NCBI GenBank assembly: GCA_017303935.1
Contig: JAFLBD010000002.1
Span: 620,001 to 684,000, forward strand
Origin: Armatimonadota bacterium
GTDB lineage: Bacteria; Armatimonadota; Fimbriimonadia; Fimbriimonadales; Fimbriimonadaceae
Length of the DNA stretch: 64,000 bases
Direction of reading: 5' to 3'
Notes under the pieces: model-generated
Seen by the model: only the letters and a program-made list of their open reading frames with translations
What the model was told of the DNA's origin: nothing
Databases searched by the model: none
Translations under genes and position numbers: made by a program
Shown: in pieces, positions 7,231 to 61,029 of the stretch
Layout: each line of letters starts with the position of its first letter
Numbering within the stretch: position 1 is the first letter of the stretch

Positions 7231-7305
7231 TGGTGGTCGGTATAGGATTTGAACCTACGACCCCTTCGGTGTGAACGAAGTGCTCTACCGCTGAGCTAAC
7301 CGACC
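7231..7305 (-). tRNA. tRNA-Val (CAC), intact copy
   Basis: The minus strand folds into a full cloverleaf: acceptor GGTCGGT/ACCGACC, D-arm GCTC-AGCGGTA-GAGC, anticodon stem CTTCG/CGAAG around loop TTCACAC (anticodon CAC), T-arm GTAGG-TTCAAAT-CCTAT, discriminator A and an encoded CCA. Its 3' end points at the integrase gene, so it is the likely attachment site of the island at 1-7138. Confidence 0.95.
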
Positions 7306-8860: not shown

Positions 8861-8935
8861 TGGTGGTCGATATAGGATTAGAACCTGCGACCCCTTCAGT
8901 GTGAACGAAGTGCTCTACCGCTGAGCTAACCGACC
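8861..8935 (-). tRNA. second tRNA-Val (CAC) copy, degenerate
   Basis: A direct repeat of the tRNA at 7231-7305 with four differences in 75 bases. It keeps the anticodon loop TTCACAC and an encoded CCA. The changes give a G-U pair in the acceptor stem, a G-U pair at the base of the anticodon stem, a C-A mismatch in the T stem (GCAGG against CCTAT) and loss of the conserved purine after TTC in the T loop. It is probably a decayed duplicate or a remnant attachment copy. Confidence 0.6.
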
Positions 8936-53348: not shown

Positions 53349-53462
53349 GTGCCTCATTATGACCTTACAAAAATTCTTTAGTCCCACCAAAGAAACTATT
53401 TGCAGGGTTCTGCCAGTATCCTTGCGGTGAGGCCAAATGCCTCACGACTAGAGGGAATCAAC

Positions 53463-56400
53463 TTGCTTAATCTTGCACTCACACTCTTAATCGGAGCTCA
53501 GCCAGCAGAAGTGCGGCTCCTCCGAAACCCCGATGTTTACGGGGATACCGTTGTCTTCAACTATGCGACCGACCTTTGGGTGATGAACACCAAAGACGGC
53601 ATCGCACGCCGACTCACCAGCCATCCAGGTACCGAATCCAGAGCGAGATTTAGCCCAGATGGAAAGCAAATCTCGTTCACCGGTACCTACGACGGAAACG
53701 CAGACATCTACGTGGTTGACACTGACGGAGGCGAACCAAAGCGGCTGACCTTCAACGGCGGCCCTGACGTGAACCAAGACTGGACGCCAGACGGAAAGAT
53801 CGCATTCTCCTCCGCGATGGGCACGTTCACCAACCGCAACATGCGATTGTCGGTGGTCTCGCCAAACGGCAGCATGCCAGAGCTCACCCCGATTCAGGAA
53901 ATTGCGGAACTCAGCTATAGCCCAGACGGCAAAACACTCGCCTACAACCGGGCGAATAGCCAGCCATTCAACTGGCGACGCTATCGCGGTGGAACTCAGG
54001 GGCGAATCAGCTTCTACAACTTCGCCGAGAACAAGTATTGGGAGCTACCTGCCGGACGAGAACAAAGCTATTCACCGATGTGGGTCGGCAACAAGGTGTT
54101 CTACATTTCCGACAAGGACTTTGGCACTCGAAACCTGTTCGCTGCGGATGTTGATTCTAAGAAAGCAACACGGTTGACCAGCTTTAAGGACGCCGACATC
54201 AAGTTCCCAGCAACCGACGGAAAAACGATCGTTTGGGAACGAGACGGATTCCTGGAATCGTACGACATCAAGTCTGAAAAGGTCACTCGCGTCAAGGCTT
54301 ATATTCCTACCGACAACGTTGCTTCCCGCCCGCGACTTCGCAATGTTGGTGACAGTATCGGCGGATTTGACCTCGGCCCGACTGGTCAGCGATTGATGAT
54401 CGATGGTCGCGGAGACATCTTCAGCGTTCCTGCGCGGTCTGGCGACACAAGAAATCTCACCGAAACCCAGGGCGTTCGCGAGCAAAATCCTGACTGGTCA
54501 CCAGACGGCAAGTTGGTTGCGTACATCAGCGATGCCAGTGGTGAAAAGCAGCTTTACACCCGTCCACAGATGGGCGGCGAAGCCAAAAAGATCACCGTCG
54601 ACAAGCTGATCAACGGTTTCCAATGGACACCGGATGGCAAGGGATTCTTGTACACCACCAGCGACGGAAGGCTGATCCACAAGGATGGAGCAACTGGTGC
54701 CGAGACAATGATCTTCAAGAACGACTGGCAAGCCAATCCGGTGTACGACATGAGTCAAGACGGCTCGACGATCGCGTATTGCAAGCCAGGCAACAACCTG
54801 CAAAGCTCGATCTATCTGTACGACGTCGCCACCAAGAAGGCCACGAAGATCACCGAAGGTTACTACGACGACTCCAATCTGTCGTTCGACATGAACGGTA
54901 AGTTCTTGTACGTGGTCTCAACCCGAACATTCGCCCCAACTGGCGGTGCGTTCGAGTTCATGATGAACATGGAAGCCGGGCAGCGCGTTTACGCGATCTC
55001 TCTGGATAAGAGCACGCCAAACCCGATGATGCGGCCTGGTGACGAAGAACCAACCGGCGAAGAAGGCGCACCGGCACAGCCAGCAGGCGAGCCATCAAAG
55101 AAGATGAAGATCGACTACGATGGCATCGAAGATCGCTTCATTCCTCTGCCATTCGCGCCAGCAAACTACCGCGTGATGGGCGTTAGCAACGGAGTGCTTG
55201 TGTTCTCGCAGTCCGGTATCACGCTCTGGAGCTTTGCAGCTAGAGCTCCACTTCCGATCTATGAAGGCCCGCTCTTCAATGTCTCGCTCAACGACAAGCG
55301 AAACAAGATGGCGATCCAAACCCCGCTCGGCATCTCGATCATGGGCGTCGCCCCTGGCCAAGATCCAAACGCAGGAAAGGTGAGCACCGCTGGCATGGAC
55401 ATGATGTGGGATCCGCGCGCCGAATGGAAGCAGATCTTCAACGAAGTCTGGCGATGGGAGCGCGACGTTTACTACGATCCAAACATGCTTGGCCTAGACT
55501 GGAACGCGATCGGAAAGCAGTACGAAGCCTATCTGCCTTACGTCAATCACCACGCTGACCTGAACTATGTTCTCGGCGGATTGATCGGCGAACTCGGCAC
55601 AGGCCACGCTTATGTGAGCGGCGGCGAAATGGGCGACATGGGACGACCAGTTCCTGTGGGTCATCTCGGAGCGGACTATGCCGTTTCCGGTGGATTCGTC
55701 AAGTTCGCCAAGGTCTACAAGGGCCTAAACTTTGAAGAAGGCCGCCGCGGACCGCTTGGCGATATTGGAGTCGATGTCAAGGACGGCGATTATCTGCTCG
55801 AAATCGATGGCGCGAAGGTCACTGCGAACCAAGATTTGCACGCCCTGATGCAAAACAAGGTTGGCAAAACCGTGACGATCACCGTGAATGGTTCGCCAAC
55901 CATGACCGGTGCTCGCAAGTACAAGGTCCGTCCGATCGCCAACGAAACCGAGTTGCGATACATCAGCTGGGTGGAAAAGAACCGAAAGTACGTCGCGGCA
56001 AAAACCGGCGGCAAGATCGGTTATCTGCACATCCCGGACACTTCGATCCCAGGCGTGATCGAGTTCATGAAGGGATTCTATAGCCAAACCGACAAGGAAG
56101 GCTGGATTTTTGACGAGCGCAACAACGGCGGCGGCATGATCCCAACCTTCTTCGTGGAGTTCTTGCAGCGCGAAGTCGTGGCCAAGATGAAGGCTAGAAA
56201 TTGGAACGACATCGGATTCCCAGTCGGCACTCTGGAAGGCGCAAAGGTCATGATGATCAACGAAAATGCGGGATCGGGCGGCGACATGTTGCCGTGGCTG
56301 TTCCGCGAAGCAAAGCTCGGGCCGCTCGTCGGCACCCGAACTTGGGGCGGCTTGGTCGGTATCCAAGGCGGCGCGCCGCTGGTCGATGGAACCTCGGTGA

Positions 56401-56621
56401 CTGCGCCAGGATTCGGTATCTACGATCACAAGGCGGGCAAGTGGATCGCTGAAAACGAAGGCATCTCGCCAGACGTTCAAGTCGACCTGCGCCCTGACCT
56501 GCTGGCTCGCGGAATCGACGCACAACTGGATAAGGCCATCGAAGTGGTGGTCGATCTCGCCAAGAAGCAACGCCGCGAATCCAAAACCCCTGCATTCCCG
56601 AGACCAAAGCCTGGTCAATAA
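53463..56621 (+). CDS. tricorn-type protease (S41 family) with beta-propeller and PDZ domain
   Basis: A 1052-residue secreted peptidase. I start at TTG 53463, because GAGGG lies at 53451-53455 with proper spacing and the protein then begins with a signal peptide (LNLALTLLIGAQPAE). An N-terminal beta-propeller follows, with repeated SPDGK-type blades (ARFSPDGKQISFTGTYDGNA, YSPDGKTLAYN, WSPDGKLVAYIS, WTPDGKGFLYTT). The C-terminal half has a PDZ domain (DVKDGDYLLEIDGAKV, about 770-820) and an S41 protease with the catalytic Ser in NENAGSGGDMLPWLF. It probably degrades peptides in the periplasm. Length fits tricorn core proteins. Confidence 0.93.
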   Translation: MLNLALTLLIGAQPAEVRLLRNPDVYGDTVVFNYATDLWVMNTKDGIARRLTSHPGTESRARFSPDGKQISFTGTYDGNADIYVVDTDGGEPKRLTFNGGPDVNQDWTPDGKIAFSSAMGTFTNRNMRLSVVSPNGSMPELTPIQEIAELSYSPDGKTLAYNRANSQPFNWRRYRGGTQGRISFYNFAENKYWELPAGREQSYSPMWVGNKVFYISDKDFGTRNLFAADVDSKKATRLTSFKDADIKFPATDGKTIVWERDGFLESYDIKSEKVTRVKAYIPTDNVASRPRLRNVGDSIGGFDLGPTGQRLMIDGRGDIFSVPARSGDTRNLTETQGVREQNPDWSPDGKLVAYISDASGEKQLYTRPQMGGEAKKITVDKLINGFQWTPDGKGFLYTTSDGRLIHKDGATGAETMIFKNDWQANPVYDMSQDGSTIAYCKPGNNLQSSIYLYDVATKKATKITEGYYDDSNLSFDMNGKFLYVVSTRTFAPTGGAFEFMMNMEAGQRVYAISLDKSTPNPMMRPGDEEPTGEEGAPAQPAGEPSKKMKIDYDGIEDRFIPLPFAPANYRVMGVSNGVLVFSQSGITLWSFAARAPLPIYEGPLFNVSLNDKRNKMAIQTPLGISIMGVAPGQDPNAGKVSTAGMDMMWDPRAEWKQIFNEVWRWERDVYYDPNMLGLDWNAIGKQYEAYLPYVNHHADLNYVLGGLIGELGTGHAYVSGGEMGDMGRPVPVGHLGADYAVSGGFVKFAKVYKGLNFEEGRRGPLGDIGVDVKDGDYLLEIDGAKVTANQDLHALMQNKVGKTVTITVNGSPTMTGARKYKVRPIANETELRYISWVEKNRKYVAAKTGGKIGYLHIPDTSIPGVIEFMKGFYSQTDKEGWIFDERNNGGGMIPTFFVEFLQREVVAKMKARNWNDIGFPVGTLEGAKVMMINENAGSGGDMLPWLFREAKLGPLVGTRTWGGLVGIQGGAPLVDGTSVTAPGFGIYDHKAGKWIAENEGISPDVQVDLRPDLLARGIDAQLDKAIEVVVDLAKKQRRESKTPAFPRPKPGQ

Positions 56622-56649: not shown

Positions 56650-56689
56650 ACACATCGCATCCCCAATCGGGGATGCGATGTGTTGTTTA
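56650..56689 (+). terminator. strong hairpin after the tricorn gene, probable terminator
   Basis: ACACATCGCATCCCC (56650-56664) pairs perfectly with GGGGATGCGATGTGT (56669-56683) around AATC. The T-run afterwards (TGTTT) is short, so it may instead be an intergenic palindrome. Confidence 0.6.
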
Positions 56690-56940: not shown

Positions 56941-57534
56941 ATGATTGCTCTCTTTGCCGCAGTATGGCTTTCGATCTCACTCTCGGGGGTAGAGGACAAA
57001 TCTGAACTAGATGAAGTTATTCTCGGCCAGAGCAAAAGCGTCACAACGTACTGCCGTAAGAACAAGTTGGCGCCCTATTATTCTCAATATGCATCTTTCA
57101 TAACGGACCAACAAAAGCGAGTGCAATTGCAATTGTCCGACGAATATGAGCCATCCGGTTTTGGAGATGTCGTTACAGATCACGGAGCCTATTCATGCGT
57201 TAGGACTCTTGTAGCAGGTCTGACTTGGGATTCACTCAAAGTATTTAAGCGTGCTGAGGGCGCAAAGGTTTCGGAGTTCTTAACGCCTCCAAACTCGCGC
57301 CAATATAGCTTGAGAGGCGGCATTGTCTTTGAAAACTTATCGACAGAAGAGGTTGCGACGAAGTCCCACGAGCAGAAGACTTGGACTACGTACATCCAGG
57401 GCAATGGTAGCGTGGTCGAATACCGTGTTCCTAAAGGATATTGCTATTTCTACACAGACGAAGAATCTGTGAATGTTGTGATCAACGATGAATGCACGAA
57501 AAGGACAATCGAGATATTTAGACGCCCGAAGTAA
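56941..57534 (+). CDS. hypothetical secreted protein
   Basis: A 197-residue protein with a weak N-terminal signal (MIALFAAVWLSISLSG). I recognise no domain. The sequence is mixed alpha/beta with many Tyr, Thr and Glu (VVTDHGAYSCVRTLVAGLTWDS) and is AT-richer than the core genes. It lies next to orphan Rhs fragments, so a polymorphic-toxin immunity protein is conceivable, but this is only context. Confidence 0.55.
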   Translation: MIALFAAVWLSISLSGVEDKSELDEVILGQSKSVTTYCRKNKLAPYYSQYASFITDQQKRVQLQLSDEYEPSGFGDVVTDHGAYSCVRTLVAGLTWDSLKVFKRAEGAKVSEFLTPPNSRQYSLRGGIVFENLSTEEVATKSHEQKTWTTYIQGNGSVVEYRVPKGYCYFYTDEESVNVVINDECTKRTIEIFRRPK

Positions 57535-58021
57535 GTCATCCGCAGGTTATACGAGGGAATCTGTACTAAAGGATCTGCTTCATGGCTACAAGTTGGTGGG
57601 GCCAATGAACTGCCTAGTCATTCCGGTCGCTCATGAATGCGAACGGGAATATTGGCATGAAATAGAATCATCAGTTCTGAAAAATTCCAATGAATTCAAT
57701 GTTTTAGAGATACACTTCTCGTCGCTATTTATCCTGACGCGAAAGGCGTTTGCTCACTTCTTACCGCTTGCCTTGTATCCCTTGTTATTGTGTACAACAT
57801 GTGGTCTTGAGGATCGCCTTTACGATATTCTGGACAAGACGAATGGCAGGATTCCATCGGAGATTCCTGAGCCGCTTGTTCGGCCTTCCATCAATCTGCT
57901 CCAGCTAGTGTTAGCTTCCGAGCATCTCTTTGAACTCACCGTTGATAGTTCAGCTCGCCAAGGCCAAGTTAGGAAAGCGATGCTTATCCGGATGCAGAAA
58001 GCGCTCGAAGCCCGTGCATAG
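57488..58021 (+). CDS. hypothetical protein upstream of an orphan Rhs fragment
   Basis: A protein of up to 177 residues that I do not recognise. ATG at 57605 (MNCLVIPVAHECER) is an alternative start and would avoid the 47-base overlap with the preceding gene. Notable segments are FNVLEIHFSSLFILTRKAFA, LPLALYPLLLCTTCGLEDRL and INLLQLVLASEHLFEL. It is a plausible immunity or accessory protein, by neighbourhood only. Confidence 0.45.
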   Translation: MNARKGQSRYLDARSKSSAGYTRESVLKDLLHGYKLVGPMNCLVIPVAHECEREYWHEIESSVLKNSNEFNVLEIHFSSLFILTRKAFAHFLPLALYPLLLCTTCGLEDRLYDILDKTNGRIPSEIPEPLVRPSINLLQLVLASEHLFELTVDSSARQGQVRKAMLIRMQKALEARA

Positions 58022-58114
58022 CCTTTCGCCCTCTGTTTGAATGTCTTCCGGCGGAGTCCTTGAGGTTCGGCCACGGACTGGTCGCAGAACATTCCTGGTC
58101 TTAGGGGTATCGAG

Positions 58115-58921
58115 ATGCAGCGGACTCGGGTCTATAATGCTTCATGGCAGGAGCAGTATCCGCTCTATGATGGGCACGGCAACATGATTTCCGCGCTGAA
58201 GATCACGAGGCCAGCGCTGAGTGGTGGCTACTACTCCGGCACGACCACGTATGCAACTTCCACAGACAGAAAGTACGACGTTTGGGGAGCCGTGCGCGGG
58301 AACAATAAGACGGGATACTCCTACAACCGCTACTGCGCCAACCTCGGGCATGTTGCGGATGACGACACCGGCCTTATCTACATGAGGGCGAGGTACTACG
58401 AGCCTGGAACGGGGAGGTTCATTAGCGAGGATCCTGCGATGGATGGATCAAACTGGTACACGTATTGCGACAATGAGCCTGTAAGCGGTGTCGACTATTC
58501 TGGTAAATCCAGAACGGACGCCATAGCCGGGATAGCGTATGCTGGGATGGCAGTACTTAGCGCGTACTTAACAATAAGCACTGCAACAAATGGCACAGCT
58601 TCGGGAATAGGCTCGATGTTAGGTGGTGGAATTACGTTGGGTTTCAGCGCAATGGCTACGTACTACTACTTGCTTGCGCTTAGTGGGTCCAGTGCTGAAG
58701 GCAAGCTGAAGCTAGGCGTAGCTGGAGTAGTCACCGCATTGCTGATGTCTGGTTTTGACAGGCTACTCATTGCTACTTCTAAGGCAATCGATGAGATGGG
58801 CAAACTAGCAAAAGTTGCAGGCGGAGTAGCTCTTAAAGCGGGAAGCCTTATGGCTGGCTATGCCTTAGCATTACTTGCAGCATTGATGCTGATCTCTGAG
58901 GAAGAATGGAACGGTGCATAA
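58115..58921 (+). CDS. orphan Rhs C-terminal fragment with a hydrophobic tip
   Basis: A 268-residue remnant of an Rhs/YD-repeat protein. It starts in the Rhs core (PLYDGHGNMISALKI, KYDVWGAVRGNNKTGYSYNR) and carries the complete Rhs-associated border GLIYMRARYYEPGTGRFISEDPAMDGSNWYTYCDNEPV. After the border comes a variable ~125-residue tip with several membrane-like helices (IAYAGMAVLSAYLTI, MLGGGITLGFSAMATYYYLLA, GYALALLAALMLI). It lacks the long N-terminal shell and signal, so it is either silent or an orphan C-terminal cassette awaiting recombination into a full Rhs gene. A short membrane protein gene overlaps its end, the usual place for immunity. Confidence 0.75.
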   Translation: MQRTRVYNASWQEQYPLYDGHGNMISALKITRPALSGGYYSGTTTYATSTDRKYDVWGAVRGNNKTGYSYNRYCANLGHVADDDTGLIYMRARYYEPGTGRFISEDPAMDGSNWYTYCDNEPVSGVDYSGKSRTDAIAGIAYAGMAVLSAYLTISTATNGTASGIGSMLGGGITLGFSAMATYYYLLALSGSSAEGKLKLGVAGVVTALLMSGFDRLLIATSKAIDEMGKLAKVAGGVALKAGSLMAGYALALLAALMLISEEEWNGA

Positions 58922-59144
58922 TGCTTTCAAAAGCGCGATCGTAAGAGGTCTCTGCATACTAGCCGAGCCCTATTTTACAATCCCATTTGCTCTAATACTC
59001 TATCCTTTTGCTGGCATTCGAAATACAGCTATTCTAGGCTCGAGTCTATTTGTATTTGGCATTATTGCGGTCGGGTATAAGAGAAGTATTACTAAGCCTG
59101 AAAAAGCGCATCCAGCGCAAGATTTCATGGAGAATGGGGAGTAG
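58914..59144 (+). CDS. small membrane protein, possible immunity protein
   Basis: A 76-residue protein with two hydrophobic segments (YFTIPFALILYPFAG and TAILGSSLFVFGIIAVGY). Its start overlaps the Rhs fragment by eight bases. Immunity proteins of membrane-active Rhs tips are often such small membrane proteins, so the role is plausible but inferred from position alone. Confidence 0.5.
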   Translation: MHNAFKSAIVRGLCILAEPYFTIPFALILYPFAGIRNTAILGSSLFVFGIIAVGYKRSITKPEKAHPAQDFMENGE

Positions 59145-59192
59145 ATCAGCTTGGGAGAGTGCGATTCATTGTTCTAGGATGCGAACGATGTT

Positions 59193-59579
59193 GTGAAGGA
59201 TACGACCACGCTTTACCGTTACGATGGCCAAATGGGGATCGGTGAAACCTACTACTATGCAACGGCGAATAATCCATACGCGGTGGACATAGCCCAGAAC
59301 ATCGTCGGTCCACGCGGGATTGAAGCCCAGATCACTCGGGTCAACGGCGGAACCCCAAACACCAAGTATCCGGTGTATGATGGGCATGGAAACATGATCT
59401 CGCAAGTTTCGATCAACCAGAGCTACAACGCGGTTTCGGGCACATGGTCGAACTCGGGCATGAGCCTGGGCAACAACCGCAAGTACGACGCCTGGCGCAA
59501 ACTCGGGCGGGTATCCCAACAACCGCTACTGCGCCAACCTCAATTCAGCTCTTGCGCTACCGTGTTGATATTTCATTGA
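59193..59579 (+). pseudogene. second orphan Rhs fragment, frameshifted
   Basis: An Rhs core piece with YRYDGQMGIGETYYYATAN and KYPVYDGHGNMISQVSINQ, matching the fragment at 58115. After KYDAWRKLG the frame breaks. A GGGTATCCC stretch at about 59512 continues in another frame as CAACCGCTACTGCGCCAACC, identical to the DNA of the first fragment, so the coding sequence has lost alignment and the border and tip are missing. This is a dead remnant. Confidence 0.75.
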
Positions 59580-59829: not shown

Positions 59830-59904
59830 TGGCTGCCGCAGTAGGATTCGAACCTACGACCCGCTGATTAACAGTCAGCTGCTCTACCACTGAGCTATGC
59901 GGCA
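59830..59904 (-). tRNA. tRNA-Asn (GTT)
   Basis: A full cloverleaf on the minus strand: acceptor TGCCGCA/TGCGGCA, D-arm GCTC-GAGC, anticodon loop CTGTTAA (GTT), T-arm GTAGG-TTCGAAT-CCTAC, discriminator G and encoded CCA. Its 3' end faces the Rhs debris. Confidence 0.96.
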
Positions 59905-60078: not shown

Positions 60079-61029
60079 ATGGATTATAACCTTCACCTCG
60101 ATTTTCTCCGCGTGACCGAAGCGGCCGCCCTTTCTTGTGCCAAATGGGTGGGCAAGGGCGAACGCGCCAATGCTGACCAGGCTGCTTGCGAAGGCATGCG
60201 AAACACCCTGGGCCAGATGGACATTGACGGCACCATCGTGATTGGTGAAGGGGAGCGCGACGAGGCTCCGATGCTGTACATCGGCGAAAAGGTCGGCAAC
60301 GGCAATGGCCCGGCGGTGATGATCGCGGTGGACCCTCTTGAAGGCACGAACCTTTGCGCCAACGGTACTCCAAACGCGATTGCGGTTTTGGCGGCGGCGG
60401 TCGAGGGTCGTGGATTCTTGATGCATGCGCCGGACTGCTATATGGAGAAGCTGGTCGTCGGCCAAGAGTGCAAGGGCGTGGTGGACATCACTTTGCCGCC
60501 CCGCGTGAACGTGCGATTGATGGCCAAAGCTCTGGGCAAGGATATTGACGAGATCACGGTGGGTGTTTTGGAGCGACCTCGGCACGACCAGTTGATCGCG
60601 GATATTCGTGAAGTGGGCGCGCGCGTTCACCTCATTCCGGATGGTGACCTTTCGATTGCGATTGCGTCGCTCGACCCAGATTCGGGCGTGGACGCTTTGA
60701 TGGGAATCGGTGGCGCGCCAGAAGGCGTGATCAGCGCAGCGGCTGTGATGTGTGTTGGCGGCGAAATGCAAGCGAGGCTGCGGTTCCAGTCTGATGAACA
60801 GCGCGAGCGTGCTATCAAGATGGTGAAGGGCGATGTGGACCGAGTTTTCCGCGCGGAAGATCTGGCCAACGGCGACGTGATGTTCGCGGCGACGGGTGTG
60901 ACTAGCGGGGACTTGCTCCGAGGCGTTCGCTATCGACGCGGAACGGCGATCACCGAATCTATCGTGATGACCAGCGATACCGGAGCGATCCGCCGAATCG
61001 AAACCCATCACCGCACCAACCCGAATTAG
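60079..61029 (+). CDS. glpX: class II fructose-1,6-bisphosphatase
   Basis: A 316-residue GlpX-type FBPase that removes the 1-phosphate in gluconeogenesis. Metal and substrate motifs are MDIDGTIVIGEGERDEAPML, GPAVMIAVDPLEGTNLCANG and GGAPEGVISAAAVMCVGGEM. Length matches the class. AAGGGAG lies 8-15 bases before the ATG. It stands alone behind the tRNA-Asn and, with PfkA elsewhere in the window, gives both directions of the fructose-phosphate step. Confidence 0.95.
   Translation: MDYNLHLDFLRVTEAAALSCAKWVGKGERANADQAACEGMRNTLGQMDIDGTIVIGEGERDEAPMLYIGEKVGNGNGPAVMIAVDPLEGTNLCANGTPNAIAVLAAAVEGRGFLMHAPDCYMEKLVVGQECKGVVDITLPPRVNVRLMAKALGKDIDEITVGVLERPRHDQLIADIREVGARVHLIPDGDLSIAIASLDPDSGVDALMGIGGAPEGVISAAAVMCVGGEMQARLRFQSDEQRERAIKMVKGDVDRVFRAEDLANGDVMFAATGVTSGDLLRGVRYRRGTAITESIVMTSDTGAIRRIETHHRTNPN

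Follow-up and report, generated by a model that had tools for sequence, protein, structure and literature searches.

Pieces of Rhs core that lie apart from any matching full-length gene raise the question of what they are and whether they still serve the genome that carries them. Such a case is presented by the 64,000 nucleotides of an Armatimonadota genome analysed here (this whole stretch is called the window; host genome G000, 2.56 Mb in 4 contigs, 99.2% complete). An earlier sequence-only reading had seen at this locus two fragments with a common Rhs core and had taken them for C-terminal Rhs cassettes that had been displaced, accompanied by a candidate immunity gene, an interpretation that the core, border, tip and overlapping ORF described below bear out. 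Neither orphan nor membrane-type Rhs tips are new in themselves; an action on membranes is known for few Rhs tips. With a probability of about two in three (0.68), we consider the locus to be the relic of a small displaced array of Rhs toxin-tip/immunity cassettes which has lost its full-length parent and which putatively acted on membranes in the manner of Tse5/Tsi5.

Fragment 1 is a single open frame (58064-58921), its first 149 codons covering the terminal part of an Rhs core together with the border. The model TIGR03696 (Rhs_assc_core) matches residues 54-130 of the ORF starting at 58115 with 64.7 bits (cut-off 32.5), and the core is 50-61% identical to the cores of relatives. The N-terminal and export part is missing, the frame opening inside the core at 58064, and a full-length gene of a sister species (G003) used as query matches the window over residues 1197-1382 of its 1495 residues only. 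Behind the border, as had been anticipated, a membrane-like tip is retained (GRAVY 0.77) with three hydrophobic windows of 19 residues and a C-terminal AY-type pattern, AGYALALLAALMLISEEEW; a single-sequence AlphaFold2 model is all-helical at low confidence (pLDDT 59). A variable tip thus follows a conserved core, since the window protein finds its core in 81 of 101 related genomes (E <= 0.001, among the matches listed), and the tip is matched in 2 of 291 genomes of the phylum, one of them its own and the other with a weak match (7.7e-4). The tip family, which had not been recognised from the letters, was equally not assigned by Pfam, PADLOC or NCBIfam: NCBIfam returned for fragment 1 Rhs core models and two sub-threshold hits, and none of the five ORFs tested could be given a usable family with Pfam or PADLOC. 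Membership in the largest tip family that could be built was rejected, as the profile, grown from relatives with the window tip kept out of the growing set and its E-value monitored, reached 17 members and a best E-value of 1.5 for the window tip.

The small ORF behind the tip overlaps the tip stop by 8 nt and has a GAGG about 10 nt upstream of its start. It had been described as an overlapping two-helix protein; the overlap stands, whereas the hydropathy count gives one clear transmembrane window and the single-sequence AlphaFold2 model one long helix (residues 2-59, mean pLDDT 77.5), a model that is, like that of the tip, too poor for fold searching. Its codon use (z = 1.0) does not by itself mark it as coding, and an ORF as long appeared at the same position in 50 of 5000 shuffles. 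A search of 291 phylum genomes gave no match beyond its own genome, and Pfam, PADLOC and NCBIfam gave no family. Equally, no promoter stands out at the locus, with 5 sites found against 3.9 expected.

The second fragment begins further upstream in the core than the first and is indeed frameshifted: one TAG lies inside the match, the frame is lost just ahead of the CAACCGCTACTGCGCCAACC stretch common to both copies, the homology to the core ends with that stretch, and border and tip are missing. The common core of the two fragments was confirmed by YDGHGNMIS, present in both, by the shared DNA blocks of Table 1 and by an alignment with 66% identity over 255 bases, the score of 177 exceeding a shuffle maximum of 102.5 (n=200). 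Copies in the arrays of relatives are mostly 0.7-0.9 alike, compared with the 66% of the window copies. Given that the loop after YDGHGNMIS is longer in both window fragments than in most relatives, the sequences suggest that both derive from one local ancestor. A hit of ArgoN on fragment 2 (E 0.017) was dismissed as chance, since the stretch is Rhs core.

Table 1. Features at and around the Rhs fragment locus (positions in the window)
Feature	Position	Strand	Remark
197-aa ORF	56941..57534	+	low-GC stretch before fragment 1; possible further cassette leftover
177-aa ORF	57488..58021	+	low-GC stretch before fragment 1; overlaps 197-aa ORF
Rhs core fragment with border (fragment 1)	58064..58510	+	frame open from 58064; first ATG 58115
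Variable hydrophobic tip, ~137 aa	58511..58921	+	AYAL-type C-terminal pattern
76-aa small hydrophobic ORF, GTG start	58914..59144	+	candidate immunity gene
Second Rhs core fragment, frameshifted (fragment 2)	59178..59541	+	homology stops at 59541, without border or tip
Shared core DNA	58155..58191 / 59365..59401	+	37 nt, 86%
Shared core DNA	58266-58285 / 59476-59495		20 nt, 80%
Shared core DNA	58313..58345 / 59509..59541	+	33 nt, 88%; contains CAACCGCTACTGCGCCAACC
tRNA-Asn	59830..59904	-	adjoins Rhs fragment locus

The locus is flanked on the left by a gene of 1073 aa (53400-56621) and on the right by a gene (60079-61029) which we take to encode fructose-1,6-bisphosphatase. As these two genes are not adjacent in sister species, the locus is a rearrangement point; beside neither of them was a tRNA-Asn found there. 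A tRNA-linked mobile element was considered in view of the adjoining tRNA-Asn and set aside, no integrase or repeat evidence having been seen. The 197-aa and 177-aa ORFs in front of fragment 1 could be leftovers of other cassettes; the former has no family in Pfam, PADLOC or NCBIfam, and the latter a single weak match (3.6e-4) beyond the own genome among 291 phylum genomes. As separate observations, a perfect 15-nt inverted repeat with a 4-nt loop (56650-56683) stands directly after the 1073-aa gene, and two tRNA-Val genes, both with CAC anticodon, lie 1.6 kb apart on the same strand (7231-7305 and 8861-8935).

The sequence-only reading had proposed to look for a full-length Rhs gene with which the cores could be compared, and had named the lack of one among the findings that would speak against it. 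This point is half borne out: such genes do exist in the own genome, of 1587 aa on contig C1 and of 1786 aa on C3, but none has a matching core. The window protein matched the C3 gene alone, with 31% over 104 residues, and left the C1 gene unmatched. The 1495-aa full-length gene of G003, which belongs to the core class of the window, retrieved from the own genome the two window fragments, a 35% border match on C3 and nothing else, and the N-terminal part of the gene of another relative (L056) had no match in the own genome. No full-length parent with this core was thus found in the own genome, and one could lie in an assembly gap. Recombination of the cassette back into a full gene, as had been proposed, finds no matching-core gene and is therefore a route not available here, barring a parent hidden in a gap or transferred from elsewhere. 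At G000:C1:878000-893500 (L047) the 1587-aa gene precedes three shorter frames (403, 417 and 323 aa) whose tips are cysteine-rich or soluble, with further ORFs in between; this array still has its parent and belongs to a different core class. At G000:C3:257000-262400 (L048) the 1786-aa gene has a 163-aa ORF at its stop and a tip which, by its motif, presumably resembles a GIY-YIG nuclease.

The window core class is almost confined to Armatimonadota in a scan of GTDB contigs, the contigs being titled, for example, Fimbriimonadaceae, Chthonomonadaceae or Armatimonadetes bacterium. The loci L149 (JADZEW010000007.1), L194, L195 and L197 (SYMT01) are titled Methanoregulaceae archaeon or Actinomycetota and yet have this core class; JADZEW010000007.1 is probably mistitled or comes from a mixed bin. 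From 60 loci around core matches, chosen by hand among the matches listed, 136 ORFs hit the core profile, and the 115 with a tip of 85-200 residues were used for tip hydropathy, divided by profile score into window-like cores (78 copies at >= 110, 11 at 95-110) and an other core class (26). Median tip GRAVY is 0.61 and 0.66 in the two window-like groups and -0.28 in the other class, and tips above 0.3 make up 59/78 and 9/11 of the window-like copies (68/89) versus 4/26, with the cuts (scores 95 and 110, GRAVY 0.3) chosen post hoc and then reapplied to 42 new copies. These further window-like copies, for which 64 tips of the first set, 9 tips of unsuitable length and ORFs not reaching the end of the core profile were left out, have a median of 0.76, with 37/42 above 0.3. 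Six copies from other phyla range from -0.66 to 0.54. Most tips cannot be aligned with one another, 27 pairs reaching E <= 1e-3 among the tips compared all-against-all. An AY[SAG][L]-type pattern recurs in the last 40 residues of 34/89 tips (shuffle mean 11.8, max 20), and small-residue zipper motifs are enriched (207 versus a shuffled mean of 126.9, max 162).

Small ORFs behind the tip are equally a property of the class. In 78 of the 89 window-like cassettes, an ORF with a length of 45 aa or more begins at most 40 nt from the tip stop, in 44 of these 78 at or before the stop; the partner table leaves out 8/89 copies with a partner beyond 40 nt and 3/89 without a partner. Membrane-type tips go together with membrane-type partners: a hydrophobic partner accompanies 49 of 61 hydrophobic tips versus 3 of 17 other tips, 14 of the latter having soluble partners (Fisher 3.6e-6), and tip and partner hydropathy correlate (Spearman 0.46, a value as high in 0 of 10000 permutations), p-values that are optimistic because the cassette copies are related to one another. 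In the other core class no such link was found among 21 pairs. The replicate two-by-two table points in the same direction (20/11/0/4, p 0.026), and the replicate rank correlation is not significant (Spearman 0.15, p 0.38), which counts against the main reading. As for the missing front part, full-length relatives have a hydrophobic start that by eye is signal-peptide-like, DUF6531 follows in 3/3 genes scanned for it, and export is on this ground likely.

Movement and persistence of cassettes can be followed in relatives. In the G031 pair (L081:3679-4362 and L098:4148-4837) identity is 94% between the tips and 82% between the partners but 56% between the cores, and cassettes accordingly move as units. 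By NG86, dN/dS is 0.027/0.163 (about 0.17) for this tip and 0.103/0.298 for its partner, and this tip at least has thus evolved under constraint. In six other pairs dS is saturated or high, the partner being more diverged than the tip in 5/6 and less so in L049/L053. Arrays without a detected parent, here called parentless, recur as well. A core match at E <= 1e-20 occurs in 37 of 101 genomes among the matches listed, and 12 of these 37 have an N-terminal part of the class at E <= 1e-20; many of the remaining genomes are fragmented assemblies, arrays being places where contigs break. Six genomes with at most 4 contigs have the core (G000, G011, G022, G035, G036 and G046, among the matches listed), and in five of them the N-terminal half of the class was not found, G035 having it about 2 Mb away from the array. 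Eight array copies were counted in G011, five in G022 and two each in G046 and G036, with tip and partner frames open. A parent frameshifted by assembly error was rejected for these four single-contig relatives, in which L056 (992 residues) as query left no piece below residue 700, an absence that holds at the sensitivity of this query; such pieces are present in G028, G016, G029, G035 and G003, and G057 had none either. No long frame with the window core was found in G011, G022, G036 or G046 among the matches listed, and these genomes may hold a parent with a very different N-terminus.

Known systems resemble the locus in part. Orphan rhs-CT/rhsI modules occur in Salmonella LT2 and other Enterobacteriaceae, and in Salmonella a main rhs gene and an orphan are 95% identical over 522 bp, the orphan being reused by recombination (PMC3967940). 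The window cassette is like these modules in having a core piece, a border, a variable tip and a linked small gene and in being without an N-terminal and export part. In Salmonella, however, the orphan lies downstream of the main rhs gene, whereas the window has no matching-core gene and its second copy is broken; the near-identical main core is a feature of Salmonella that is not needed for orphan status and that the window does not share. Cassette arrays without a matching delivery gene have reportedly been described in Bacteroidales as orphan immunity arrays and acquired interbacterial defence systems; cassettes are kept in the same way here, but with the tips retained beside their partners and the tip ORFs open in fragment 1 and in the arrays of relatives that were read. 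With respect to mode of action, the Tse5 tip of Pseudomonas aeruginosa inserts in membranes, forms pores and depolarises cells, and it is neutralised by Tsi5, a protein of the membrane for which two transmembrane regions are predicted (PMC9637101). The window protein matches Tse5 chain 8cp6 with E 1.5e-4 over query residues 56-130, the match ending at the border, so that the tips are not related in sequence. Common to both are a hydrophobic multi-helix tip (from a low-confidence model here) behind an Rhs border and a small hydrophobic candidate partner, and the resemblance of the window cassette to Tse5 is thus one of build. For Tse5 the route of delivery is a type VI system; the full-length relatives of the window have a signal-peptide-like start and DUF6531.

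In the favoured interpretation of a parentless relic, the surviving cassette encodes the last part of an Rhs shell, then a hypervariable tip built from membrane-seeking helices and, in overlap with it, a small membrane protein. The full-length protein was probably exported, to judge from the start of its relatives; on arrival at a neighbouring cell the tip would lodge in the inner membrane there and dissipate ion gradients, the small partner in the membrane of the producer would block the cognate tip, and the orphan tip would be silent in its own genome. Counting against this interpretation are the lack of usable homologues for the window tip and the 76-aa ORF, the position of the tip outside the largest family and the weak codon use of the 76-aa ORF. 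The lack of homologues and the weak codon use of the 76-aa ORF, together with the plainly broken fragment 2 and the shuffles in which an equally long ORF arose, would fit dead debris, in which fragment 1 would be a pseudogene and the 76-aa ORF would have arisen by chance; that 78 of 89 related cassettes carry a hydropathy-matched ORF in the same place makes this unlikely. A live reserve, a silent cassette that recombines into a full-length Rhs gene as in Salmonella, would agree with the intact cassette layout of fragment 1 and with that precedent, but the genome offers no matching-core gene, the best other core reaching about 31-35% at protein level around the border, and a newly acquired parent would be needed, so that we regard such a role as highly improbable.

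On the other hand, the partner, perhaps together with the two upstream ORFs, might be expressed as protection against tip-deploying neighbours, the tip piece being a passenger. In G011, G022, G046 and G036 the parentless arrays have the frames of both tip and partner open, which suggests that they serve for more than the supply of a parent, and orphan immunity arrays have, as mentioned, reportedly been described in other bacteria (PMC12247911, PMC10470768). A pure immunity bank would, however, let its tips decay, and tip frames are open in most copies read; the absence of a standout promoter and the weak codon use of the 76-aa ORF also speak against it, and we give this alternative a small share of the probability. 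Membrane tips could also serve Rhs proteins as variable anchors in the membrane or as surface modules, with the partner as a membrane chaperone; the membrane-like character of tips throughout the class would fit this, and no activity is known for any tip. Neither hypervariability nor a hydropathy-matched, faster-evolving partner is required of anchors, though, and the same core class also bears soluble tips with soluble partners, which leaves little room for this explanation. The parentless relic with a membrane-acting tip remains the interpretation we prefer.

The window locus alone is an ordinary relic, and its interest rests in its core class. Neither the class-wide bias to membrane tips and partners nor the parentless arrays were found described in the PMC papers listed on Rhs or polymorphic toxins of Armatimonadota or Fimbriimonas. 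As a tentative and rather doubtful extension, Armatimonadota might possess an Rhs class of their own, probably Sec-exported, the tips of which nearly all act on membranes, and parentless cassette arrays might persist as a store of immunity to membrane toxins and perhaps of future weapons for a horizontally acquired shell, inherited apart from the delivery gene. The phylum-wide core class seems to bear mostly membrane-type tips, in dozens of unrelated-looking pairs of tip and partner. If these tips are toxins, they would constitute a large new pool of membrane-acting toxins with cognate blockers, and the parentless arrays make it testable why orphan toxin cassettes persist without a gene to recombine with.
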